Source of the DNA: Rhodoferax sp.
Lineage (GTDB): Bacteria; Pseudomonadota; Gammaproteobacteria; Burkholderiales; Burkholderiaceae_C
Length of the DNA stretch: 40,607 bases
NCBI RefSeq assembly: GCF_028715765.1
Contig: NZ_JAQURE010000030.1
Coordinates: 1 to 40,607, forward strand
Reading direction: 5' to 3'
Shown: one piece after another, positions 5,784 through 35,131 of the stretch
How the letters are laid out: each line of letters begins with the position of its first letter
Position numbering within the stretch: position 1 is the first letter of the stretch
Translations under genes and position numbers: made by a program
Notes under the pieces: generated by a model
What the model saw: only the letters and a program-made list of their open reading frames with translations
Databases searched by the model: none
Told to the model about the DNA's origin: nothing

Positions 5784-8700
5784 TCACGCCCTGATCTGTG
5801 CCAGCAATGCCTCCCAGCGCTGTTGGGCGGCTTGCATGTGGCGCAACTTGACGTGACCAAAGCCACGAATGTCTTGCGGCACAGCCATCAATTGACAAGC
5901 AATTTGATAGCTATTCATGCTTATTTCATAAGGTCTAGAGGCCAATAACTTATATATTTCTTGCAGCGCAACCAGGTAACGCTCAAGCCAGGCGCGCTCC
6001 TGGCGGCGCTCCGCGCTGTAGCCAAACACATCCCCAACCGTGCCGCGCAAACCTTTCAGGCGAGCCAACACTTTGAACGCGGTGAGCACCCAGGGGCCAA
6101 AGCGCTGTTTGACCAGTTCACCCTGGTCATTGGTTTTGCCCAGCAAGGGCGGGGCCAGGTGAAAGTGCAGCTGGTAGTCGCCCTCAAACTGCTTGGCCAG
6201 CTTGGCGGCAAAACTGCCATCGGTGTACAGGCGCGCGACCTCGTATTCGTCCTTGTACGCCATCAGCTTGAACAGGTTGTGCGCCACCGCTTCGCTCAAC
6301 GCGGTTTTGCCCAGCAAGGCATCCACGCGCTGCACCTCGTCCATCATTTTTTGATAGCGTGCGGCGTAAGCTGCATCCTGGTAAGCGGTCAAAAATGCCA
6401 CACGTTTGGCGATGACATCGGCCAGGGCAGGCTTTTTGACAAACTCGATCACTTGTGCGGTCTGCAGCAGCGCCTGCACCGCTGTCAAGTCGTGCGCGCA
6501 GTGGCGACCCCACTCAAACGCCGCCTGGTTGTTGGCCACTTGCACACCGTTGAGCGCCATAGCACGCAGCAAGGCGGCACGGCTCAAAGGCACTCGACCT
6601 TTTTGCCAGGCGTAGCCCAGCAGCAAAGGGTTGGTGTAAATCGCGTCGCCCAGCGCCAGCGTGGCGACCTGCTCGGCATCGAACACGCCCAAAGCCTGCG
6701 CGCCTACATTGGCAGCAATAGCCGCCTCGCAGCCACCTTCTGGAAACTGCCACTGCGGGTGGTGCACAAACGCTGCCGTGGGCGTGGCGTGGCTGTTGAG
6801 TGCCACAAAGGTGCGCCCATGCTGCATCACATTCAGCGTCACCTTGCTGGCCGCCACAATGGCATCGCAGCCAATCACCAGGTCGGCACGGGCGGTGTCC
6901 ACCTTGCTGGTGTAAATGGCCTCTGCGGTGTTGGCCACCTGGACAAAGCTCCAGGTGGCACCGCCCTTTTGCGCCAGGCCACCGGCATCTTGCGTGACCA
7001 CACCTTTGCCGTCCAGATGTGCCGCCATGCCCAGCAGCTGGCCAATGGTGATGACCCCGGTGCCGCCGACACCGCCCACCACCATGCCCCAAGCCGCATC
7101 TGTGGCGGGCAACACCGGCTCTGGCAACGCGGGCAAGGCCTCCAGGCTGCCCTGCTGGTCTTTTTTGGGTTTTTTGAGCTGCCCGCCTTTGACGGTGACA
7201 AAACTCGGGCAAAAGCCTTTGACGCAGCTGAAGTCTTTGTTGCAGCTGCTCTGGTTGATGGTGCGTTTGCGGCCAAATTCGGTCTCAAGCGGCTCAATGC
7301 TCAGGCAGTTGGACTGCTCGCCGCAGTCGCCACAACCTTCACACACCAACTCGTTGATGACCACCCGTTCATCGGGCTCTGTGAGCGTGCCGCGCTTGCG
7401 TTTGCGGCGTTTTTCGGTGGCGCACATCTGGTCGTAGATGATGGCGGTGGTGCCTTTAAGCGCACGAAATTCGCACTGGATGCGGTCGAGTTCATCACGG
7501 TGTTGCACGGTCACGCCGGGCGACAACACCACGCCAGAGTATTTTTCAGGCTGGTCGGTCACGATCACCAGTTTGGCCACGCCCTCACTCACCAGGCTGG
7601 CCATGATTTGCAACACGCTGTGGCCCTCGGGGCGCTCACCCACACGCTGGCCGCCGGTCATGGCCACGGCATCGTTGTACAGCACTTTGTAGGTGATGTT
7701 GACCCCGGCGGCAATGCTCTGACGAATGGCCAGCAGGCCGCTGTGAAAGTAAGTGCCGTCGCCCAGGTTGGCGAACACGTGGGTGTCGGTGCTAAAGGGT
7801 TGCTGCCCCACCCAGGCCACACCCTCGCCGCCCATCTGGCTGAAGGTGCTCGTTGACCGGTCCATCCACACCGTCATGTAATGGCAGCCAATGCCCGCCA
7901 GCGCGCGTGAACCTTCGGGCACGCGGGTGCTGGTGTTGTGCGGGCAGCCGCTGCAAAACCAGGGCAAGCGTTCACCGGTGTCGGACTTGATGGCCAACGC
8001 GCCGCGTTCTTTGGCCGCCAGCAGCGCCAGATGCTGCTCCATGCGTTGCGCCACGTCATCGGGCACACCCAGTTTTTGCAGGCGCTTGGCAATGGCCTTG
8101 GCCACCAGACCCGGGTTCAGGTCGGCATTGGCACGCAGCAAGGCACTGCCGCCCGGGTTGGGCTGGCTCCATTCGCCACCCGTGCCATCCGCATCGTCGT
8201 CAAACTTGCCCACCACGTTGGGGCGCACGCGCCAGTGGTACAGCTCTTCCTTGAGTTGGTATTCAATCACCTGGCGTTTTTCTTCCACCACCAGAATCTC
8301 TTGCAGCCCCTGGGCGAAGTCGCGCGTGCCGCTGGCCTCCAGCGGCCAGACCACGTTGACCTGGTGCAGGCGCAGCCCGATGCGCTGGCAGGTGGCCGCA
8401 TCCAGCCCCAAATCGGCCAGCGCTTGCCGTGTGTCATTGAACGCCTTGCCGCTGGCGATGATGCCAAAGCGGTCCTGGCTGCCCTCGATGACGTTGTGGT
8501 TGAGCTTGTTGGCGCGCACATAGGCCAGCGCGGCGTACCACTTGTAGTCCATCAACCGCGCTTCTTGGTCCAGCGGCGCATCAGGCCAGCGGATGTGCAC
8601 GCCGCCAGCAGGCATGGCAAAGTCTTCAGGCATGACGATCTTGACGCGGGTCAGACTGACATCGACCGAGCTGCTGGACTCCACCACCTCCTGAATCGTC

Positions 8701-9384: not shown

Positions 9385-9402
9385 GATTCAAATCATTTAT
9401 AT

Positions 9403-9464
9403 GCGTTTTAAGCCTCTAGAGCTTATAGATAAAGCTTAAGTAGCTATTTATTAAATAGCTATTG
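9403..9464 (-). repeat. Dispersed hairpin-like repeat, copy B (intergenic)
   Basis: On the minus strand it reads AATAGCTATTTAATAA, then ATAGCTACTTAAGC (ATAGCT starts at 9447), then ATAAG (starts at 9426, spacing 21), then CTCTAGAGGCTTAAAA. The doubled ATAGCT 5' arm is shared with the copy in ubiA (AATAGCTATGTAAAAC then ATAGCT). It sits just beyond the cheV stop codon, between that stop and the cheV terminator. Confidence 0.8.
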
Positions 9465-9466
9465 AA

Positions 9467-10429
9467 TCAATGCGTCAACACCTTGCGAATGGTTTGAGCC
9501 AGTTCGTCGGCAACAAATTTGGCCACATAGGCATCGGCGCCAACTTTCTTGACGTGCTCTTCGTTGGTGGTGCCTGTGAGCGAGGAGTGAATCACCACTG
9601 GAATGCCGCTGTAGCGCGGGTCTTGCTTGATGTTGCGGGTGAGTGTGAAGCCGTCCATCTCAGGCATTTCCAGGTCGGTCAGCACCAGAGCGACTTTGTC
9701 TTTGATGGTTTGACCGCGCGATTCGGCCTCGGAGGCCATGGCTTTGAGGCGATCCCACGCCTCTTGACCAGATTTGGTCATGATGAACGGCACGCCCATT
9801 GATTTGAGGCCTTGTTCAATCATCATGCGCGCCACCGCAGAGTCGTCGGCAGCCAGCACCACCGTACCGGGCGGGATATGCAGCTTGCTCTCGGAGGAAA
9901 CCTCCACTTGGTGTGCTTCCGGGAACACATCGCGCAGGATTTGCTCCACATCCAGCACCTGTGCCAGGCGGGTGTTTTCAGCGTCGCCATCGAGCCGGGC
10001 AATGCTGGTGACGAGTCCGCCGCCACGGCCTTCGGCAGACAGCACTTGCTTCCACTCCAGGCGCACGATCTCATTGACCTCTTCCACGGCAAAGGCTTGC
10101 GTGGTGCGGGCAAATTCGGTCACCAACAAAATACCCAGCCCCTTGGTGGGGTTGGTGCCCACCAGCTGCGGCAGGTTGATGACGGTGATCATCTGGCCGC
10201 GGATGTTGGCCACACCCATCACCGAGGGCGGCGAGTTGACCATGGCCGTGACCTCGGGCATGACCAAAATTTCACGCACTTTGAACACGTTGATGCCAAA
10301 CAGTTCGCGCTTATCGGTGCCAGGCGCTTCACCCAAACGAAACAGCAGCAGCTCAAACATGCTGTTACCGGCCAGGTTGGTGCGCTCGTCAATGTCGCGC
10401 ATGGTGGATTTGTGGCTGGATGTGCTCAT
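9467..10429 (-). CDS. cheV: CheV-type chemotaxis coupling protein (CheW + receiver)
   Basis: 320 residues: an N-terminal CheW-like domain (about 25-165; GVANIRGQMITVINLPQL is the typical coupling core) fused to a C-terminal phospho-acceptor receiver domain (about 188-318). The receiver has the acidic pair D195/D196, phospho-acceptor D252 in LTDLEMPEMDG, a Ser in HSSLTG near 283 and K304 in YVAKF. This is the CheV layout: a scaffold coupling chemoreceptors to the CheA kinase whose activity can be tuned by phosphorylation. The ATG at 10429 has GGAA 8 nt upstream. It starts 56 bp after the mltA stop and has its own downstream terminator. No other chemotaxis gene is in the window. Confidence 0.88.
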   Translation of the reverse strand: MSTSSHKSTMRDIDERTNLAGNSMFELLLFRLGEAPGTDKRELFGINVFKVREILVMPEVTAMVNSPPSVMGVANIRGQMITVINLPQLVGTNPTKGLGILLVTEFARTTQAFAVEEVNEIVRLEWKQVLSAEGRGGGLVTSIARLDGDAENTRLAQVLDVEQILRDVFPEAHQVEVSSESKLHIPPGTVVLAADDSAVARMMIEQGLKSMGVPFIMTKSGQEAWDRLKAMASEAESRGQTIKDKVALVLTDLEMPEMDGFTLTRNIKQDPRYSGIPVVIHSSLTGTTNEEHVKKVGADAYVAKFVADELAQTIRKVLTH

Positions 10430-20179: not shown

Positions 20180-20256
<77 letters not shown>

Positions 20257-20272
20257 ATATTTGTATTATAGA

Positions 20273-20668
20273 CTATTTATCTGCTTCTGAGGTAACTTCA
20301 ACTGAAGAATCTTCACGATCAACAAATTCAACCAATGCCATTGGGGCATTGTCACCCACGCGGAAACCCATTTTCAAGATTCGGGTATATCCACCTGGAC
20401 GAGCTTTGAAACGAGGACCCAATACATTGAAAAGCTTTACAACGCTGTCACGATCACGCAAACGATCAAAAGCCAGTCGATGATTTGCCAAAGTAGGCTC
20501 TTTGGCTAAAGTAATCATAGGCTCAACAACACGGCGAAGTTCCTTTGCTTTTGGCAAAGTAGTTTTAATTACTTCGTGTTCAATAATGGAATTCATCATA
20601 TTGCGCAACATCGCAAGACGATGTGATGAAGTACGATTTAATTTTCTAAGACCAAGACCATGACGCAT
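20273..20668 (-). CDS. rplQ: 50S ribosomal protein L17
   Basis: 131 residues, typical L17 from the N-terminal [17 protein letters not shown] to the acidic tail found in many betaproteobacterial versions ([15 protein letters not shown]). It contacts 23S rRNA near the exit-tunnel side of the large subunit. It is the last protein gene of the cluster, 63 bp after rpoA and 16 bp before tRNA-fMet. Confidence 0.98.
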
Positions 20669-20731
20669 AAATGTTCCTTTTATTTATAAAGAATAGCCGT
20701 ATCAGGTACTATTCTGAGTGGGTATCTTTAA

Positions 20732-21721
20732 TTAACGTTTTTCCAAAGCCGAAGGCGGCCAAGAATCTAATTTCATACCAAGTGTCAAACCACGAGAAGC
20801 CAAAACTTCTTTGATTTCATTCAATGACTTACGACCAAGATTTGGTGTTTTGAGCAACTCATTTTCGGTACGTTGAATCAAATCACCAATGTAATAAATG
20901 TTTTCAGCTTTAAGACAATTGGCGGAACGAACAGTCAGCTCCAATTCATCAACTGGACGCAGCAAAACAGGGTCAAATTGTGAACTTGACCGAGCCGATG
21001 AACTGACAATGGCATCCACTTCACCGCCTTCAAGTTGTGCAAACACAGCAAGCTGCTCAACAAGAATTTTAGCTGATGCGCGAATCGCGTCCTCCGCCGT
21101 GATGGCGCCGTTGGTTTCAATATCAACAATAAGTTTGTCAAGATCAGTTCTTTGCTCGACACGTGCACTCTCAACGGTATAGCTCACGCGACGAACTGGT
21201 GAAAAGGATGCATCTAAAACAAGCCGACCGATAGACTTGTTCAATTCATCCGCATGACGGCGAACAGAACCAGGCACATAGCCACGACCCTTCTCAACCT
21301 TGATCTGCATGTCAAGCTTGCCACCATACGAAAGGTTAGCAATGACATGATCAGGGTTGATGATTTCAACATCATGTGGTGTCTGGATATCTGCAGCTGT
21401 TACAACACCTTCAGAGTCTTTTCTGAGACTAAGTGTGACTTCATCACGATTGTGAAGCTTGAAGACCACACCTTTTAAGTTCAGCAAAATGTTAACAACA
21501 TCTTCTTGAACGCCATCAATAGAAGAATACTCATGAAGAACGCCTGCAATAGTCACCTCAGTAGGAGCAAACCCCACCATCGATGACAAAAGAACGCGCC
21601 TTAACGCATTACCTAATGTATGGCCATAGCCACGTTCAAAAGGCTCTAAAACCACCTTTGAACGGTTATTTTCCAACTGTTCAACAGTGATAGTTTTTGG
21701 CTTCAGTAAATTAGCTTGCAT
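20732..21721 (-). CDS. rpoA: DNA-directed RNA polymerase subunit alpha
   Basis: 329 residues. The N-terminal dimerisation and assembly domain (about 1-230) includes [21 protein letters not shown] flexible linker follows, then the C-terminal domain (about 250-315), which contacts UP-element DNA and activators through [18 protein letters not shown]. The start at 21721 ([17 protein letters not shown]) is supported by GAGAGG about 7 nt upstream; an ATG five codons earlier would put extra residues in front of the conserved N-terminus. Codon use is strongly A/T-ending. A 96-bp gap separates it from rpsD and contains a small CCGAT/ATCGG dyad. Confidence 0.98.
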
Positions 21722-21817
21722 ATATAAACCTCTCAATACCCCCGATACGTTACATCGGTAAGGCTGATCTGAAGCTGAAATTCAGTTAAGAAACAGCAAA
21801 AATAAACAAATGAAAAT

Positions 21818-22441
21818 TTACCGTGAGTACAACTCAACAATCAGAGATTCATTAACATCAGCAGCGAATTGATCACGATCAGGAACTGATTTAAACTTAC
21901 CTTCAGCTTTGTCAGTATTGACTTCAACCCAATCAGGGAAGCCAACTTGTTGAGCCAACTGAAGTGCTTCAATCACGCGGGCTTGCTTAGCTGATTTTTC
22001 TCTCACAGTAACTGCATCACCGGCTGTAACCATGTAAGACGGAATATTCACAGATTTACCGTTAACGAGAATCGCTTTATGAGATACAAGTTGACGAGCT
22101 TCAGCTCGGGTCGAACCAAAACCCATACGATATACAACATTGTCTAATCTGCACTCTAAGATCGACAACAAGTTTGAACCAGTATTACCTTTACGGCGAT
22201 CTGCTTCTTCAAAATATTTTCTAAACTGCTTCTCGAGAATGCCGTACATTCTCTTAACTTTTTGTTTTTCACGCAGTTGAACACCATAATCAGAAGTTCT
22301 TGCTCCTGATGTGCGACCATGCTGGCCTGGTTTTGAATCAAACTTCGCTTTATCGCTGATAGAGCGGCGAGCACTCTTCAAAAAGAGATCGGTACCTTCA
22401 CGGCGTGAAAGTTTTGCTTTGGGACCTAAATAACGTGCCAC
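21818..22441 (-). CDS. rpsD: 30S ribosomal protein S4
   Basis: 207 residues, a primary 16S rRNA binding protein and, in E. coli, the translational repressor of the alpha operon. It is the zinc-free (C-minus) form: the N-terminal [20 protein letters not shown] region has no Cys pairs. The S4 RNA-binding domain runs from about residue 97 ([20 protein letters not shown]). It lies between rpsK and rpoA, the standard order. Confidence 0.98.
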
Positions 22442-22462
22442 TTGAGTTTCCTTTTATTCATC

Positions 22463-22480
22463 TTCCGCTGCGAAGCGGGA
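22463..22480 (-). promoter_or_regulatory. Small hairpin in the rpsK-rpsD spacer
   Basis: The 78-bp spacer contains a compact stem (CCGCT at 22465-22469 with AGCGG at 22474-22478, 4-nt loop), extendable by two weaker pairs. It lies about 20 nt upstream of the rpsD start on the minus strand. It could be a processing site or could modulate rpsD translation. The run of AT-rich sequence around it makes it stand out, but nothing proves a function. Confidence 0.3.
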
Positions 22481-22519
22481 GCTCAAACAAGATATTGAAT
22501 GAGCGGTGGGCTTAATAAA

Positions 22520-22924
22520 TTAAATACGACGACGCTTTTGTGGGCGGCAACCATTGTGCGGAACAGGCGTGACATCAGCAATCATATTGATGCGAATGCC
22601 AAGAGCTGCCAATGCACGGACTGAAGATTCACGGCCTGGACCTGGACCTTTGATCTCAACATCAAGATTCTTAATGCCTTGATCAATGGCTGCACGACCA
22701 GCAACTTCCGAAGCGACTTGAGCAGCGAAAGGGGTAGATTTACGAGAACCCTTGAACCCCTGCCCACCTGATGAAGCCCAAGATAAAGAGTTACCTTGGC
22801 GATCGGTTATGGTGATGATGGTGTTGTTGAAAGACGCGTGAACGTGAGCAATACCATCAGCAACGTTCTTACGGATTTTTTTCCGCACACGCTGAGCAGC
22901 ATTATTTGCAGGTGCTTTTGCCAT
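22520..22924 (-). CDS. rpsK: 30S ribosomal protein S11
   Basis: 134 residues. S11 lines the platform of the small subunit near the mRNA exit (Shine-Dalgarno) site. The diagnostic motifs are intact: [20 protein letters not shown], the [17 protein letters not shown] glycine-rich loop, and the terminal [17 protein letters not shown]. It starts 19 bp after the rpsM stop. Confidence 0.98.
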
Positions 22925-22943
22925 GATTAACCTTCAGTGAGAA

Positions 22944-23309
22944 TTATTTTTTAAGTGAGGCTGCTGCTTTACGCGGGCCTTTACGTGTACGAGCATTTGT
23001 CCGGGTGCGTTGACCACGCAATGGCAAACCGCGGCGATGACGAAAACCACGATAGCAACCAATGTCCATCAAACGCTTGATATTCATTGTTGTTTCGCGA
23101 CGAAGATCACCCTCAATAGTGAATTTTCCAACTTCATCACGCAATTTCTCAAGATCAGCATCAGAGAGATCCTTGATCTTTTTGGAATAGTCGATGCCAC
23201 AAGCTTCGCAAAGCTTGCGAGCACGGCTGCGACCAACCCCGAAAATAGCTGTTAAACCAATTTCAGTGTGTTTTTGCGGTGGGATGTTTATACCAGCGAT
23301 ACGTGCCAT
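22944..23309 (-). CDS. rpsM: 30S ribosomal protein S13
   Basis: 121 residues. S13 sits in the small-subunit head, bridges to L5 and touches the P-site tRNA through its basic tail. It begins [20 protein letters not shown], contains [20 protein letters not shown], and ends in a Lys-rich tail (RKAAASLKK). It follows rpmJ by 24 bp. Confidence 0.98.
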
Positions 23310-23333
23310 TTTAATCCTCTATTACTCTAGCTC

Positions 23334-23447
23334 TTAACCTTGACGCTGTTTGTGACGCGGATCTGTACAAATCACACGAACAACACCTTTACGACGAATA
23401 ACCTTGCAATTACGGCAAATCTTCTTTACCGAAGCAGAAACTTTCAT
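23334..23447 (-). CDS. rpmJ: 50S ribosomal protein L36
   Basis: A 37-codon gene, found by reading the gap between infA and rpsM. The product runs [20 protein letters not shown] and then ends [10 protein letters not shown]. The zinc ligands are present (the Cys pair in ICRNC, a third Cys in RVICTD, His in PRHKQ), making it the zinc-binding form. The ATG at 23447 has GGAG about 7 nt upstream. It fills the space between infA and rpsM exactly, as in other bacteria. Confidence 0.96.
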
Positions 23448-23476
23448 TGCCTTCTCCTAACAAATAAATAATAAAA

Positions 23477-23695
23477 CTATTTAGCGCGAAATACGATTCG
23501 CGCACGACTTAAATCATAGGGTGTCAACTCGACAGTCACCTTATCACCAGGAAGAATTCGAATGTAATGCATACGCATCTTTCCTGAAATATGGCCGAGT
23601 ACTATATGACCATTTTCTAACTTCACTCGAAACGTAGCATTTGGTAAGTTTTCAACAATCTCACCTTGCATTTGAATAACATCATCTTTTGCCAT
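23477..23695 (-). CDS. infA: Translation initiation factor IF-1
   Basis: 72 residues, a single OB fold that occupies the ribosomal A site during initiation. It begins [20 protein letters not shown] and contains [20 protein letters not shown]. Its position between secY and rpmJ is common in betaproteobacteria, whereas E. coli keeps infA elsewhere. It starts 7 bp after the secY stop. Confidence 0.97.
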
Positions 23696-23702
23696 ACTAA
23701 AC

Positions 23703-25016
23703 TTAAGAAGCCTTAAAGTTTGCTTTTTTCAAAAGCGAGTCATATTGCTGCGACATTAAATAATTTTGAACTTGAGCCATGAAATCCATTGTTACAACAA
23801 CAATAATCAAAAGTGATGTACCCCCAAAATAAAATGGGACGTTGTATTTCAAAATTAAAAATTCAGGAAGCAAACAAACTAAAGTGATGTAGATTGCACC
23901 GATAAACGTCAAACGAAGCAAAATCTTGTCAATGTACCGTGCTGTATTATCCCCAGGACGTATACCAGGAACAAAAGCTCCACTCTTCTTTAAGTTTTCA
24001 GCTGTTTCCTTGCTGTTGAAAACCAGAGCTGTATAAAAGAAGCAGAAGAAAATTATTGCTGCAGCATAAAACATTACGTAGACAGGTTGGCCAGGTGTCA
24101 AGGATCCTGCTATATCTTTGAGCCATCTCATAGATTCACCAGCACTGAACCAACCAACAACTGTTGCAGGTAACAAAATAATAGACGATGCGAAAATTGG
24201 AGGAATTACACCAGCCATATTCAACTTAAGCGGTAGATGCGAAGACTGACCACCATAAACTTTGTTACCAACTTGTCGGCGTGCATAGTTCACAAGTATT
24301 TTTCGTTGACCACGTTCAACAAAAACTACAAAATACGTAACAAGCCCCACCAAAACAACAATAACCATTGAAATTATGATGCTCATTGCGCCAGTACGCA
24401 CCAGTTCGAGTAAACCACCAACTGCGCTTGGGAGTCCAGCTGCGATACCTGCAAATATCAATATTGAAATACCATTACCAAGACCACGTTCAGTAATCTG
24501 TTCACCCAGCCACATTAGAAAAAGCGTTCCTGAAGTGAGCGTAACAACTGCTGTCATGCGAAAGCCAAAACCCGGTGCAATCACTAACCCAGCTGAACTC
24601 TCAAGTGCTACAGCAATACCAAGAGATTGAAACAGTGCCAAACCCAGTGTTCCATAACGAGTGAATTGTGTAATTTTTCTTCTTCCAGCTTCACCCTCTT
24701 TTTTCAGCTGTTCGAAAGTAGGAACAACATAGCCCAAGAGCTGCATAATGATCGATGCCGAAATGTATGGCATGATTCCTAATGCAAATATCGTAAATCT
24801 GGACAGTGCACCACCTGAGAACATGTTAAACATGCCCAAGATGCCACCTTGTTGACCTTTGAAAAATTGTTGTAGCTGATTCGCATCGATACCAGGCACA
24901 GGAATATGTGCTCCAATACGATAAACAACAAGGGCAAGTAATAAAAAGATAAGACGGCGACGTAAATCACCATACTTATCTGTTTTTACAGAGCTCATTG
25001 AGCTAGAAGTTACCAC
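23703..25016 (-). CDS. secY: Preprotein translocase channel subunit SecY
   Basis: 437 residues with the ten membrane helices of the protein-conducting channel. Family landmarks include [20 protein letters not shown] near the N-terminus, [14 protein letters not shown] (helix 2), and the cytoplasmic loop [19 protein letters not shown]. The likely start is a GTG at 25016 with GGAAAAAG about 8 nt upstream; an ATG six codons later (24998) is an alternative. Base composition is very AT-rich: 23 of 60 bases are G/C in 23881-23940. It lies 20 bp after rplO. It works with the SecDF-YajC complex encoded at 2.4-5.7 kb. Confidence 0.97.
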
Positions 25017-25036
25017 TGAGCTTTTTCCAAAACGAT

Positions 25037-25468
25037 TTATTGAAGGCTACCACCAGCCGACAGCAAAGCTGCCTTCGCACCAGCAGTTGCACCAATTCCA
25101 GTCAGAATGAACTTTTTGGAAACTGTACCGGTGTGAATAACTTTAACAACCTTGGCTATTTCATTCACCAAACCAGCCTGCTTCAAAACAACAATATTGA
25201 TTTCACCAGCTTCCAACGAATTCAATGCATCTAGAGTTACTTCAGCATTGAACTTTAGCAGTGCAGACTTGAAACCGCGTTTGGGAAGACGGCGCTGCAT
25301 AGGCATTTGACCACCTTCAAAACCAACTTTATGGTAGCCACCAGCGCGTGATTTTTGACCTTTGTGTCCACGTCCAGCCGTCTTACCTAAGCCTGAGCCG
25401 ATGCCACGACCTACACGGCGTTTGTAATGCTTTGCTCCGTCTGCCGGCTTGATGCTATTGAGTTCCAT
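25037..25468 (-). CDS. rplO: 50S ribosomal protein L15
   Basis: 143 residues. A Gly-rich, basic N-terminal half ([20 protein letters not shown] and then QKSRAGG) threads into 23S rRNA; a globular C-terminal half follows ([13 protein letters not shown]). It starts with [18 protein letters not shown]. It follows rpmD by 10 bp and precedes secY, the standard spc order. Confidence 0.98.
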
Positions 25469-25478
25469 TTTTTACCTC

Positions 25479-25661
25479 TTAAAGCACTTTAACTAAATAG
25501 CTAATTTTGTTGATCATTCCACGCACTTCTGGTGTGTCAATCAACTCACTTGTGCTGTGCATTTTGCGCAAGCCCAAACCACGAACTGTTGCGCGGTGAG
25601 ACTCGGCACAGCCAATCGGACTGCGTACGAGTTTCACTGTTACTTTCTTTTGTGAAGTCAT
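25479..25661 (-). CDS. rpmD: 50S ribosomal protein L30
   Basis: 60 residues, the short bacterial form: [20 protein letters not shown], then the conserved [16 protein letters not shown]. It starts 15 bp after rpsE and ends 10 bp before rplO. Confidence 0.97.
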
Positions 25662-25676
25662 GTCAACAATCTCCGA

Positions 25677-26201
25677 TTAGGCAAACAATTCTTCAACTGT
25701 TTTACCGCGTTTTGCAGCAACATTTGAAGGTGTAGTAGCGTTTGATAGTGCATTCAGCGTTGCACGCACCATGTTGTAGGGATTGGATGAACCGTGGCTC
25801 TTTGCAACGATGTCTGTAATTCCAATCACTTCAAAAACAGCGCGCATTGGGCCACCAGCAATGATGCCAGTTCCCTTGGGCGCCGGTGCCATCATGACTG
25901 ATGCTGCGCCATGGTGACCCATGACTTTGTGATGGATTGAACCATTTTTGAGAGAGACTTTTGACATGTTGCGACGAGCTTCTTCCATCGCTTTTTGCAC
26001 AGCAGCTGGCACTTCTTTCGATTTACCTTTACCCATGCCAACAGTGCCATCGCCATCACCAACAACTGTCAATGCTGCAAAACCTAGAATTCGACCACCC
26101 TTCACCACTTTGGTGACGCGGTTGATCGCAATCATTTTTTCACGCAAGCCATCTTCAGGCCCATCAGCCTTACCTTGCATTTTCGCTTGTACTTTAGCCA
26201 T
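25677..26201 (-). CDS. rpsE: 30S ribosomal protein S5
   Basis: 174 residues with the two S5 domains: a dsRNA-binding-like N-terminal domain ([20 protein letters not shown], then [20 protein letters not shown]) and a C-terminal domain ([20 protein letters not shown]). S5 lies at the mRNA entry channel and influences decoding accuracy. It follows rplR by 17 bp. Confidence 0.98.
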
Positions 26202-26218
26202 CTTAATTTCCGATCTGC

Positions 26219-26584
26219 TTAGAACTGCAAGCCAGCTTCACGTGCCGCTTCAGCCAACGCTTTCACGCGGCCATGGTACGCAAATCCAGCACGGTCAAAT
26301 GCCACTTTCTCAATCCCAGCCGCTTTGGCTTTTTCAGCCACGCGTTTGCCAACCACTTGTGCTGCAGCGACGTTACCGCCCTTGCCAGACGCACCCAAGG
26401 CTTGACGAACTTCGGCTTCTGAGGTTGAGGCTGTTGCCAAAACTTTGGAACCATCTCCAGAAATAACACTTGCGTAGATATGCAAGTTGGTGCGGTTGAC
26501 CGTTAAACGCGCTACGCCTTGATTGGCAATGCGAATGCGCGTTTGACGTGCTCTGCGAAGACGCTGCTCTTTTTTGCTCAACAT
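26219..26584 (-). CDS. rplR: 50S ribosomal protein L18
   Basis: 121 residues. L18 binds 5S rRNA together with L5. It begins with a basic [19 protein letters not shown] arm and ends [20 protein letters not shown] plus AREAGLQF, the conserved L18 C-terminus. It follows rplF by 11 bp. Confidence 0.98.
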
Positions 26585-26595
26585 AATGCAGATCC

Positions 26596-27129
26596 TTATT
26601 TCTTCTTGGTTTCTTTGATAGCTACTTTTTCTTCTGCGTAACGAATGCCTTTGCCTTTGTATGGCTCTGGCGGACGAATTGCACGAATCTCAGCAGCAAC
26701 TTGACCAACACGCTGACGGTCAGCACCCTTGATCACCACCTCAGTGGGAGTTGGTGTAGTCACAGTGATACCTTCAGGCATCACCTTGTCAACCGGGTGG
26801 GAATAGCCAACTGTTAAGTTGAGTTTGTTCCCAGTTGCTTGAACTTTGTAACCCACACCGATCAAAGTTAGCTTCTTTTCAAAGCCCTTGGTCACACCAA
26901 GAACCATGTTGTTGACCAGTTGCCGCATCGTGCCTGTCAGGGCATCTGCATTGCGCGAGTCATTGGCAGCTGTGAAGCTGACCGAACCTGACACATCGGT
27001 GATTTTTACTAAGGCATTTTGCGCAAGTGTCAACTGACCACCAGCACCTTTAACGATGATCTGTTGCTCATCCATCTTGAATTCCACACCTGATGGAATT
27101 GAGACAGGCATTTTGGCTATACGAGACAT
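26596..27129 (-). CDS. rplF: 50S ribosomal protein L6
   Basis: 177 residues with two repeated L6 folds. The N-terminus is [17 protein letters not shown]; the C-terminal signature [19 protein letters not shown] is intact and followed by IKETKKK. It sits near the factor-binding site of the large subunit. It starts 26 bp after rpsH. A GATAGCTACTTTT string at its 3' end is ordinary coding sequence, not a repeat copy. Confidence 0.98.
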
Positions 27130-27155
27130 TTGTTACTTCTCCTGAATGTCAAGTA

Positions 27156-27551
27156 TCAAGCGACGTAGCAGAGAACTTCTCCGCCAACACCAGTTGCACG
27201 CGCTTTACGATCTGTCATCACACCTTTTGGTGTGGTGACAATTGCAACACCCAGTCCGTTTTGGACTTGCGGGATTGCATCGCTACCACGGTAAACGCGC
27301 AAGCCTGGACGACTCACACGCTCAATTCGCTCGATGACAGGACGACCTGCGTAGTATTTCAACGAAATTTCTAAAACTGATTTGCCTTCTGTTGTAGTCA
27401 CTTTGATGTCATCAACGTAACCTTCATCTTTGAGAACTTGCGCAATGGCAACTTTCAATTTTGAAGACGGCACACATACTGAAGTTTTCGCAACCATTTG
27501 AGCGTTACGAATACGTGTCAGCAAGTCGGCGATCGGATCACTCATACTCAT
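27156..27551 (-). CDS. rpsH: 30S ribosomal protein S8
   Basis: 131 residues, a primary 16S rRNA binder. In E. coli it represses its own spc operon by binding the rplE translation-start region; whether a mimic site exists here was not resolved. The start [18 protein letters not shown] has two possible ATGs (27551 and 27545). The C-terminal [20 protein letters not shown] is conserved. Confidence 0.98.
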
Positions 27552-27569
27552 ATCTATTTCTCCTACCGA

Positions 27570-27875
27570 TTACCAGCTGGCTTTGACAATGCCAGGAATT
27601 TCCCCAGCAAATGCCATTTCACGAATTTTTGCTCTGGCCAAACCAAAGTGTGCAAATGTGCCACGTGGGCGACCTGTGATTGCACAACGGTTGCGCTGAC
27701 GTGTTGGGTTTGCATTGCGTGGAAGCATTTGCAAACCTAAGCGCGCGACTGCTCGTTCTTCATCGGTGCGTTTGGCATCCGTAGAAATAGCTTTCAATTC
27801 CGCATGTTTTTTTGCGAATTTGGCAACCAGTTTGTCTCGTTTGAGCTCGCGCTCGATTAAAGCCATCTTAGCCAC
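27570..27875 (-). CDS. rpsN: 30S ribosomal protein S14
   Basis: 101 residues, the long, zinc-free (C-minus) form of S14: [20 protein letters not shown] at the start, then [20 protein letters not shown] plus [18 protein letters not shown]. There is no CxxC pair. It lies between rplE (8-bp gap) and rpsH. Confidence 0.98.
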
Positions 27876-27883
27876 AGATCACC

Positions 27884-28429
27884 TCAGTTCTTGAAGGGGA
27901 AACGGAAACCAGACAAAAGTGCTTTGCACTCATCATCTGTCTTGGCCGTTGTTGTGATGCTGATATTGAGACCACGCAAAGCGTCAACTTTGTCGTATTC
28001 AATTTCAGGAAAAATAATTTGCTCTTTCACGCCGATGTTGTAGTTTCCGCGACCGTCAAATGAACGGCCTGAGATACCACGGAAGTCGCGAACGCGTGGC
28101 AAAGCAATTGTCACAAAGCGATCCAAAAACTCATACATCTGAGCGCCACGCAATGTCACCATGCAACCGATGGCTTGACCTTCACGAATCTTGAAACCTG
28201 CAATGGCTTTTTTCGACATGGTGACCACGGGTTTTTGACCGGCGATTTTTGTCAAATCACCAACTGCATGATCCATGACTTTTTTATCTGCAACTGCTTC
28301 GCTCACACCCATATTGAGTGTAATTTTTGTCATGCGAGGCACTTCCATCACTGATTTGTAGCCATATTTAGCCATTAATTCAGGAGCCAGTTTTTCACGG
28401 TAGATTTCTTGCAAACGAGCCATGTTCAT
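27884..28429 (-). CDS. rplE: 50S ribosomal protein L5
   Basis: 179-181 residues. L5 binds 5S rRNA and forms the bridge to S13. Two in-frame ATGs compete. The one at 28429 overlaps the rplX stop as ATGA. The one at 28423 ([16 protein letters not shown]) has better spacing from the AAGGTGG sequence, so the true start may be two codons inside. The remainder, including [18 protein letters not shown] and [20 protein letters not shown] C-terminal sequence ([20 protein letters not shown]), is canonical. Confidence 0.97.
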
Positions 28430-28746
28430 GCCACCTTGATTTCTTCACCGCTTGATTTGTAAACGCGTGTGCGTTTGCCATCAGCAAGTAATTTGATACC
28501 AACGCGATCTGCCTTACCGGAAGCCGCATTAAAAATTGCTATGTTGGATTGATGGATGGGCATGGTCTTTTCCACAATGCCGCCCGCCTCACCCTTCATG
28601 GGGTTTGGTTTTGCGTGTTTTTTCACAACGTTCACACCCTCAACAATGAGATGTGAATCATCGCTACGCAGCGTTACCTTACCGCGCTTACCTTTGTCGC
28701 GCCCAGTGAGCACGATCACATCGTCGCCTTTGCGAATTTTGTTCAT
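28426..28746 (-). CDS. rplX: 50S ribosomal protein L24
   Basis: 106 residues, an assembly-initiator protein of the large subunit with an N-terminal KOW motif ([20 protein letters not shown]) and the RNA-contacting [20 protein letters not shown] segment. It starts 9 bp after rplN and overlaps rplE by 4 bp (ATGA), implying translational coupling. Confidence 0.98.
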
Positions 28747-28755
28747 GTGATGTCC

Positions 28756-29124
28756 TTACAAAACTTCTGGTGCCAAAGACACGATCTTCATGAATTTTTC
28801 AGTGCGCAATTCACGTGTGACCGGGCCAAAGATGCGAGTACCAATTGGCTCAAGCTTGGCATTCAGCAGCACTGCCGCATTGCCATCAAACTTAACCAAT
28901 GAACCATCACTACGACGAATTCCCTTGGCAGTTCGAACCACTACCGCACTGTAAACATCGCCTTTTTTGACACGTCCACGTGGAGCAGCTTCTTTGATAC
29001 TCACTTTGATGATGTCGCCTACGCTAGCGTAGCGACGTTTAGATCCGCCCAGCACCTTGATGCACAGAACGGACTTGGCACCGGTGTTGTCGGCGACTTC
29101 GAGTCGAGATTCAGTTTGGATCAT
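28756..29124 (-). CDS. rplN: 50S ribosomal protein L14
   Basis: 122 residues, exactly the family length when started at 29124 ([20 protein letters not shown]); GGGAA lies about 9 nt upstream. An upstream in-frame ATG at 29172 would add 16 non-homologous residues. The [20 protein letters not shown] region and terminal [19 protein letters not shown] end ([15 protein letters not shown]) are typical. This is the first gene of the spc cluster here; upstream lies proC on the other strand and not the S10 operon. Confidence 0.98.
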
Positions 29125-30365: not shown

Positions 30366-31229
30366 CTATTGAACGAAGTAGCTGGCTGCAATGCCCGCAA
30401 ACACCGCAAAGCCGAGCCAGTGGTTCAGCCGAAAAGCTTTGAAGCAGCCTTCACGGCTGCGGCTACGGATCAGCGTAAAGTGCCACAGCACCTGCGCCAA
30501 AGCTACCAGAATAGCTATGTAAAACATAGCTCCTTGAGCATATGAAATAAGGGCTACAGCCCATATTGTTATAAATAACAAGTAACACAGCAGCACCACC
30601 GGCACATCCCAGGCGCCCAACGTGATGGCCGAGGTTTTGATGCCAAGTCGCAGATCATCGTCGCGATCCACCATGGCGTACTCGGTGTCATAGGCCAACA
30701 CCCAGCACAGGTTACCCAGCATCAGCACCCAGGCCAGTGCCGGCACTTCGCCCTGCACCGCAGCAAACGCCATCGGAATGCCCATGCCAAAGGCCACCCC
30801 CAGTACGGCTTGCGGCATTGATACGTAGCGCTTGGCATAAGGGTAAGCCAGTGTGATGGCCAGCGCCGCACCCGATATGCCCACCGTGAGCGTGTTGGTG
30901 CTCAGCACCAGCCCAAACGCCAGCAGCGCCAGCACCGCCCCCACAGCCAAAGCCTCTTTCACCGACACTGCGCCGGTGGTCACCGGCCGCTGTGCAGTGC
31001 GCTTGACATGTTTGTCGAATTCGCGATCAGCCACATCGTTGATGCAGCAGCCAGCACTGCGCATCAAAATCGTACCCGCCACGAACACCGCCAGCAAATG
31101 CCAGCCCGGAAAACCATCCGCGGCCACCCACAGCGCACTCAGTGTTGGCCACAGTAGCAGCAGCCAACCCGCAGGCCGATCCCAACGGATCAAAGCCAAA
31201 TACAACTTAAATTTGCCAGAAAAATGCAT
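30366..31229 (-). CDS. ubiA: 4-hydroxybenzoate polyprenyltransferase
   Basis: 287 residues, an integral membrane prenyltransferase that attaches the isoprenoid tail to 4-hydroxybenzoate in ubiquinone synthesis. Both aspartate-rich motifs are present: [19 protein letters not shown] near residue 64-82, and [14 protein letters not shown] near 185-200. About eight to nine membrane helices are visible. The start is an ATG at 31229, 19 bp after the oxyR stop, so the two may be co-transcribed. Codons for about residues 220-240 ([19 protein letters not shown]) lie in an AT-rich repeat copy (30510-30568). It forms a plausible membrane helix in place of the usual sequence there. Confidence 0.94.
30510..30568 (+). 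repeat. Dispersed hairpin-like repeat, copy C (inside ubiA)
   Basis: It reads AATAGCTATGTAAAAC, then ATAGCTCCTTGAGC (ATAGCT starts at 30526), then ATAAG (starts at 30547, spacing 21), then GGCTACAGCCC. The doubled ATAGCT arm matches the intergenic copy B closely, and the 3' half matches the copies in the oxidoreductase gene and recG. It is antisense to ubiA and translated in frame. Confidence 0.75.
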
Positions 31230-32860: not shown

Positions 32861-34975
<2,115 letters not shown>

Positions 34976-35131
34976 GGCTGGATTTTGCCCACTTTGCTTG
35001 GCATGCCAAACACAGTGCACACGCACGGCAGGGCGCAACAACACTGGGGCGGTTGTGCGCAAGTCATGCTCAGACTGCGACAATGCGCCCCTCTTTCACT
35101 TGGCACGGGGCACGTTCACCCCTCAAGCACC

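Follow-up and report, generated by a model that had tools for sequence, protein, structure and literature searches.

The stretch of DNA analysed here (the window, 40,607 nucleotides) belongs to contig C30 in G000, a draft genome of 3.41 Mb that is placed among Rhodoferax in a RecG tree of 81 rows. It carries four copies of a short AT-rich repeat, three inside genes and one in a spacer (Table 1). The search pattern, ATAGCT-N15-ATAAG-NN-CT-NN-AG-N-C with up to three mismatches, matches the window in exactly four places, with 0, 0, 0 and 2 mismatches; shuffled sequence gave a mean of 0.02 matches, and four were reached in none of 100 shuffles. The first-pass annotation had picked out the same four segments, and their coordinates and strands were recovered as described. 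The distance between the first bases of the two boxes, which it gave as 21 in every copy, is indeed 21 bp, or two helical turns. Profile matches bore out the host genes, and the single intergenic location and the antisense placement of the genic copies were also confirmed.

Table 1. Repeat copies in the window, with their host and neighbouring genes
Feature	Position	Strand	Remarks
Repeat copy in indolepyruvate ferredoxin oxidoreductase gene	5895..5958	+	70.5 bits; antisense, phase 0; core 5907-5942
Intergenic repeat copy, between the indolepyruvate oxidoreductase and CheW/receiver genes	9396..9459	-	79.6 bits; extra 5' palindrome GCTATTTAATAAATAGC; core 9412-9447
Repeat copy in ubiA	30514..30577	+	58.7 bits; antisense, phase 2; core 30526-30561
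Repeat copy in recG	34390..34453	+	55.2 bits, 2 mismatches; antisense, phase 1; core 34402-34437
Indolepyruvate ferredoxin oxidoreductase family gene, 1183 aa	5784..9335	-	NF009588, 1803 bits
CheW + response-regulator receiver gene	9467..10429	-	next gene upstream of the intergenic copy
ubiA, 4-hydroxybenzoate octaprenyltransferase	30366..31229	-	TIGR01474, 303 bits
recG, ATP-dependent DNA helicase	32861..35083	-	NF008166, 1128 bits

The window also has an AT-rich stretch at 20183-29000, with a tRNA and no repeat copy. A prophage was considered for this 20-29 kb region and ruled out; it is the ribosomal protein / rpoA / secY operon. At gathering thresholds, Rfam matched only the tRNA in the window and offered no family for the repeat.

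The repeat described in the first-pass annotation is real, and its conserved unit is longer than was stated there: it measures about 64 bp and consists of an imperfect hairpin of some 36 bp flanked by AT-rich sequence. The hairpin has a head of ATA or GTA followed by GCT-n-CT-nn-CGCTTAT-nnn-ATAAGCG-nn-AG-n-GGC. A profile trained only on 52 intergenic copies covers 64 bp with about 57 bits, 39 of these within the 36-bp core; it was used instead of a profile from all fetched loci, which drifted toward the abundant ubiA orthologues. The core folds into an imperfect hairpin with small internal loops, and the intergenic 36-mers have a mean folding z of -2.18 against mononucleotide shuffles (n = 52), with 65% of the copies below -1.5. 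Covariation of the stem columns was not above expectation in the copies examined, as would be expected if the sequence itself is conserved, and we therefore build no structural claim on covariation. The head reads ATAG in 69, AGAG in 10 and GTAG in 6 of 91 copies, with a search pattern that itself favours ATAG. Some copies have an extra 5' palindrome, GCTAT...ATAGC, and the pentamer lies upstream in 14 of the 52 intergenic copies.

That the four copies belong to a large family, as had been proposed, was confirmed by searching the whole genome, where the pattern has 436 matches (227 + 209) and the reversed pattern 6 (3 + 3). Placement was studied in 24% of the genome, a sample of 824 kb made up of the window and 784 kb of further G000 sequence; 718 genes were called in it by a simple custom ORF caller rather than a published one. 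The pattern found 91 copies in this sample (control 4): 52 intergenic, 9 across a gene end and 30 inside genes. Four of the 30 genic hits are probably noise, with scores for the 36-bp core below 15 bits, and one pattern hit, C2:48241, has a negative profile score. The profile at more than 20 bits found 129 copies (reversed control 0), of which 62 are genic, 57 intergenic and 10 across gene ends; this genic count supersedes the pattern-based 30. By simple extrapolation from the sample, the genome would hold about 530 copies. The presence of copies inside open reading frames is thus borne out by 62 of the 129 sampled copies, and 57 of the 718 genes (about 8%) carry one. When codons were shuffled synonymously, keeping the proteins and the codon set of each gene, only 3.3 of the 62 genic copies were left on average, so that the likeness lies in the DNA and not in the protein, as the first-pass annotation had argued.

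The intergenic copies are placed much like REP elements, 3' of genes and rarely between divergent ones, and yet 62 of the 129 copies are genic. Only 3 of the 52 intergenic copies lie between divergent genes, though such spacers make up 21.5 of 89.5 kb, and among the 718 genes there are 45 gene-copy pairs within 30 bp after the stop codon, 23 of them within 15 bp. In the complete genome G010, which has 51 perfect copies, their orientation showed no bias by replichore. Four of these 51 copies fall within 1.8-3.2 Mb, that is, in 1.4 of 4.9 Mb; the limits of this sparse region, which may surround the terminus, were chosen post hoc.

The genic copies, 39 antisense and 23 sense, have a wide range of hosts: lpxB, murU, an aroA-cmk fusion, dapE, pgeF, a pyruvate-dehydrogenase E2-like gene, CDP-glucose dehydratase, recG and ubiA, together with ileS, a reading from a structure match, and two genes that we take, from the sequence itself, to be purL (two copies, in two frames) and trpB. 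In purL (both copies), lpxB, ubiA, recG and others the repeat is read in frame. The first-pass annotation had each coding copy in a different frame, which holds for the three coding copies of the window and fails in general, since 30 of the 62 genic copies share one frame. This frame, antisense-2, yields an alanine/leucine-rich, helix-like peptide similar to ALALINKAQAAI. Among the 52 intergenic copies the core is open in frame sense-0 in 39, antisense-0 in 33 and antisense-2 in 15; antisense-2 accounts for 15 of the 30 genic copies of the pattern-based set, and for 15 of the 99 frames that are open in the intergenic set (p = 0.0003). This excess indicates that survival in genes is filtered by the peptide, not solely by the absence of stop codons.

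Several of the hosts show features of their own. The gene read as trpB (C3:119949-121274) encodes a protein that ends six codons past the repeat copy, with a tail resembling a C-terminal extension, as if the stop codon had been displaced by the repeat. The PurL linker (about residues 1098-1117 in G000) has other inserts in three relatives (L285, L282 and L283), in the first of them repeated VIAGDTPKNS-like peptides, which suggests that this linker is a hot spot for several repeat families. In recG, some relatives (L047-L050) have a linker, at about their residues 282-300, that exceeds the one of G000 by more than 20 residues; this stretch was considered as an insert and rejected, as it is a hypervariable linker with no evident repeat copy.

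Whether the repeat enters coding DNA or replaces it, the two routes named in the first-pass annotation, was approached through the length of the G000 protein minus that of a homologue at the repeat, taken from orthologue alignments or best structure matches. Insertion fits nine of the 14 compared genic sites, where G000 is longer; one site is shorter and one, in an enoyl-CoA hydratase, unclear, and replacement or evolution in place fits the three neutral ones, ubiA, lpxB and CDP-glucose dehydratase. The net changes vary by site from -9 to +18 aa. For ubiA the change is 0 in all 30 rows, 10 of them from other families, and over the 64-bp stretch all repeat-bearing orthologues, from Rhodoferax and Polaromonas, are gap-free (79 of the 95 orthologues in all, the other 16 being repeat-free). 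For lpxB it is 0 in 29 of 29 genus rows and against the best structure match, and many residues are common to repeat-bearing and repeat-free relatives. The recG site is likewise unchanged in 20 of 20 genus rows, and differs from other families by +3 (7 of 9 rows) or -1 (2 of 9). The indolepyruvate oxidoreductase differs by -1 to +3 from its 13 orthologues in the genus and by +5 or +7 from the 13 remaining rows, which come from other families and distant relatives. Site 1 of purL is +5 to +8 against nine of ten homologues from other families (the tenth has 4 residues more than G000) and unchanged in most of the genus; site 2 is +9 to +11 against nine of ten from other families and, within the genus, +4 to +13 against six rows that lack the repeat, with three further genus rows bearing longer, different inserts. 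At murU the change is +8 or +18 when four genus rows without the repeat are taken for comparison, and structure matches gave 0 for CDP-glucose dehydratase, +5 for aroA, +8 each for pgeF and dapE, +12 for a CoA-transferase and -9 for ileS. Against the nearest repeat-free orthologue, in the genus and its neighbours, there is no net change at five of the six sites for which a close one exists, an outcome that fits decay of an old copy no less well than replacement. The first-pass annotation had counted orthologues without a discontinuity at these positions as evidence against its proposal, and such orthologues do exist in part: many Rhodoferax orthologues of ubiA and recG also carry the repeat, and others lack it at equal length.

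Among 399 genomes of the order searched at no more than two mismatches, high copy number is confined to the family of the window. G000 has 311 matches at this threshold, four of 11 other sampled family members have 59-205, and the other seven 0-5, while each of the 387 genomes outside the family has five or fewer, within the range of the reversed controls. The ubiA and recG copies are found in register in many Rhodoferax and several Polaromonas genomes, and they must be old, since relatives carry copies at the same place. On the RecG tree seven changes are needed for the ubiA copy (19 rows with it, 47 without) and seven for the recG copy (29 with, 51 without), which means repeated loss, repeated gain or both. 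Insertion polymorphism of the MITE type was looked for in three genomes at 91-92% identity (G004, G041 and G062). The copy is present in both genomes in 43 of 46 placed comparisons at more than 20 bits, and no clean empty site was found among the three; the 3 comparisons that lack a copy all sit beside poorly aligned flanks and are unusable. The mobile element of the first-pass annotation is thus not supported as far as current mobility is concerned, and the family is old and apparently quiet.

Several observations bear on constraint acting at the level of DNA. In lpxB, with orthologues chosen on one half of the repeat and tested on the other, codons inside the repeat have a modal-codon share of 0.85 and those outside one of 0.65 (p = 0.0047 and 0.0037; 7 codons each). 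Six sites pooled gave 0.83 and 0.72, a biased comparison because the rows were chosen on the repeat itself; recG (p = 0.07) and murU (p = 0.23) were not significant alone. Between Rhodoferax and Polaromonas the ubiA repeat stretch ranked 12th of 276 with repeat-bearing rows only and 40th with all rows, and the recG stretch 105th of 675. Among copies common to the three close genomes, divergence was 5.6% in conserved columns, 12.3% in variable columns and 9.4% in flanks; the 20 pairs behind these figures were selected by score and are interdependent. These sequence comparisons are suggestive of some constraint, or function, acting on the DNA itself.

A candidate for past mobilization is encoded in the same genome. 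One IS200-like (Y1) protein was found in G000, matching PF01797 at 48.3 bits (cut-off 23) and NF047646, "REP-associated tyrosine transposase", at 79.3 bits, just under the cut-off of 80. A perfect repeat copy begins directly after its stop codon, and the Y1 gene lies upstream of one that we presume, from its translated sequence, to be glutamate synthase. No second, inverted copy flanks it in G000; the 800 bp upstream contain none even when five mismatches are allowed. This single adjacency is weak evidence, as the 718 genes include 23 such pairs of a gene and a copy no more than 15 bp past its stop, which implies a chance of about 3%. In nine of 19 genus neighbourhoods of the Y1 protein, G000 included, a copy with up to three mismatches lies within 15 bases of the stop codon, and G465, from another genus, has a one-mismatch copy immediately upstream of the Y1 gene. 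A Y1 protein is also present above the Pfam cut-off in four of the seven sampled family members having 0-5 matches. Beside the transposase there is another block, GGGGTCAG/TGTCCC, which was ruled out as the true repeat, GGGGTCAGATTCCAATT having only 3 copies in 824 kb. In most of the printed genomes (L391-L409) a block of the form TGTCCC..AATTA....AATTGGAATCTGACCCC stands shortly 3' of the RAYT-like gene, and it is rare elsewhere in G000. It resembles GGGGWSAS, given as a terminal-repeat motif in the section drawn on here (PMC3733652).

How does this repeat compare with known systems? Rickettsia palindromic elements (RPEs), which are palindromic repeats lying in frame within conserved genes, are alike in kind, by description, and the present repeat differs from them in having some copies of great age and three that leave the length of the protein unchanged. 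REPs of the GTAG superfamily, which are associated with RAYTs, are described in the relevant sections as short imperfect hairpins of 20-40 bp with hundreds of copies per genome (PMC2817692, PMC3733652), situated near 3' ends, between co-oriented or convergent genes, and in some cases inside ORFs (PMC3733652). The first-pass annotation called the presence in reading frames the unusual part; the copies are there, but they are not unique in this, as intragenic REPs and RPEs have been published (PMC3733652). Going by those sections, our repeat shares with REPs the hundreds of copies, the imperfect hairpin, the 3' placement of its intergenic copies, the copies in ORFs and a RAYT-like gene in the genome, and it is a high-copy short imperfect palindrome like them (436 matches; z -2.18). 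Its head, in contrast, is mostly ATAG instead of GT(A/G)G, and the RAYT-like gene of G000 has one copy, on the 3' side only, instead of two inverted flanking REPs. With head and flanking both failing to agree, we do not file the repeat as a GTAG REP; by analogy, it would work like one. It differs further from REPs in being AT-rich, in having about half of its sampled copies in genes, and in being abundant in one betaproteobacterial family only, among the genomes of the order searched.

Traces of the family may have been recorded before. One published section lists the motif pair GCTTAT(N)5AAGCG in Acidovorax ebreus, with 114 copies, mostly intergenic near gene ends and 4% in genes, and ATAGCT(N)22CAAAAG in Polaromonas naphthalenivorans, with 14% in genes (PMC5217627). 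The spacing of the former equals that of hairpin positions 12-17 and 23-27 of our repeat, and the latter shares the first box ATAGCT. Given the exact hairpin spacing of the A. ebreus pair, members of the repeat family were probably seen there as unexplained motifs; the pairs are presented as uncharacterised spaced motifs, in a section that describes no element, hairpin, genic history or transposase (PMC5217627). The beta-proteobacterial repeat element BRE, in the section describing it, is about 90 bp long, 69% G+C on average in Bordetella and partly tandem, and it resembles our repeat in occurring in Comamonadaceae with some copies inside coding sequences (PMC3110155). The AT-rich, roughly 64-bp repeat is set apart from it by description. 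A description of the repeat as an element was not found in the open-licence literature, whether by its sequence or with Comamonadaceae repeats or RAYTs. Repeats in genes are already known from REPs and RPEs; what stands out here are the genic share, the long retention and the length-neutral copies.

The account that we favour, and to which we give about an even chance, is that of an old REP-like hairpin family of Comamonadaceae, once spread as hairpin DNA, filtered in genes by selection on the protein and now simply inherited. The repeat would have spread in the past probably by means of a RAYT-type (Y1/HUH) transposase like the single one that remains. Many copies would have settled just after stop codons, and many others would have entered genes, where a copy would have survived only if its frame was open and its peptide tolerable; about half of the survivors use the frame encoding the alanine/leucine-rich, helix-like peptide. 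Such copies would have become parts of proteins and then been inherited for a long time, as was shown for ubiA and recG, while some suggestive DNA-level constraint seems to persist. Counting against this account are the mostly ATAG head, the missing second flanking copy, the Y1 proteins of family members poor in matches, the lack of stem covariation and a synonymous constraint that is weak or absent in recG and murU. Nor does insertion account for the three length-neutral genic copies in ubiA, lpxB and CDP-glucose dehydratase. It is these copies that speak for a rather improbable alternative, a DNA-level site, putatively for a DNA-binding protein or as an uptake signal, that evolved in place by substitution where the protein allowed it and was spread by selection or biased recombination, not by insertion. 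The residues common to repeat-bearing and repeat-free lpxB relatives, the box spacing of two helical turns and the conservation at codon and column level would suit such a site; however, some 57 bits over 64 bp seem too much for hundreds of de novo origins, extra residues stand at the repeat in 9 of the 14 compared sites, and the 51 perfect G010 copies have no strand bias by replichore.

A further possibility, which we also think unlikely, is that short-patch, illegitimate or homeologous recombination overwrote stretches of genes with repeat DNA, roughly length for length. The gap-free 64 bp of the repeat-bearing ubiA orthologues in Rhodoferax and Polaromonas would then follow naturally, as would net changes at other sites that vary from -9 to +18 aa in place of one fixed insert size. 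Against it, neither a donor-recipient event nor a breakpoint was seen, and the equal-length, repeat-free orthologues of the genus are equally well explained by decay of old copies. A resemblance due to chance or to the proteins, among AT-rich stretches or common peptides, has hardly any probability left: a few of the three-mismatch hits are noise, as the control count of 4 against 91 in the sample and the hit at C2:48241 indicate, but the reversed controls of 6 against 436 and 0 against 129, the 3.3 of 62 genic copies that outlast synonymous shuffling and the AT-rich ribosomal-protein operon of the window, which has no copy, all stand against it. Chance or composition as the source of the repeat was accordingly ruled out by the shuffles, the reversed controls and the synonymous codon shuffling.

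With about 8% of the sampled genes carrying a copy, the repeat has shaped many proteins of this genome, core ones included. From free intergenic copies through genic copies with extra residues to length-neutral ones, the family offers a natural series in which to test how small mobile or functional DNA turns into protein sequence, and to ask if a function of the DNA itself can limit codon choice in core genes. The boldest reading of the series, for which we see only a modest chance, is that a 64-bp DNA-level site, as opposed to an insert, has been written into the coding genes of a whole bacterial family without change of length, and has been kept because a cellular factor, putatively a DNA-binding protein or the uptake machinery, needs it. 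If this were true, core genes, lpxB among them, would carry a protein message and a DNA message in one set of codons.
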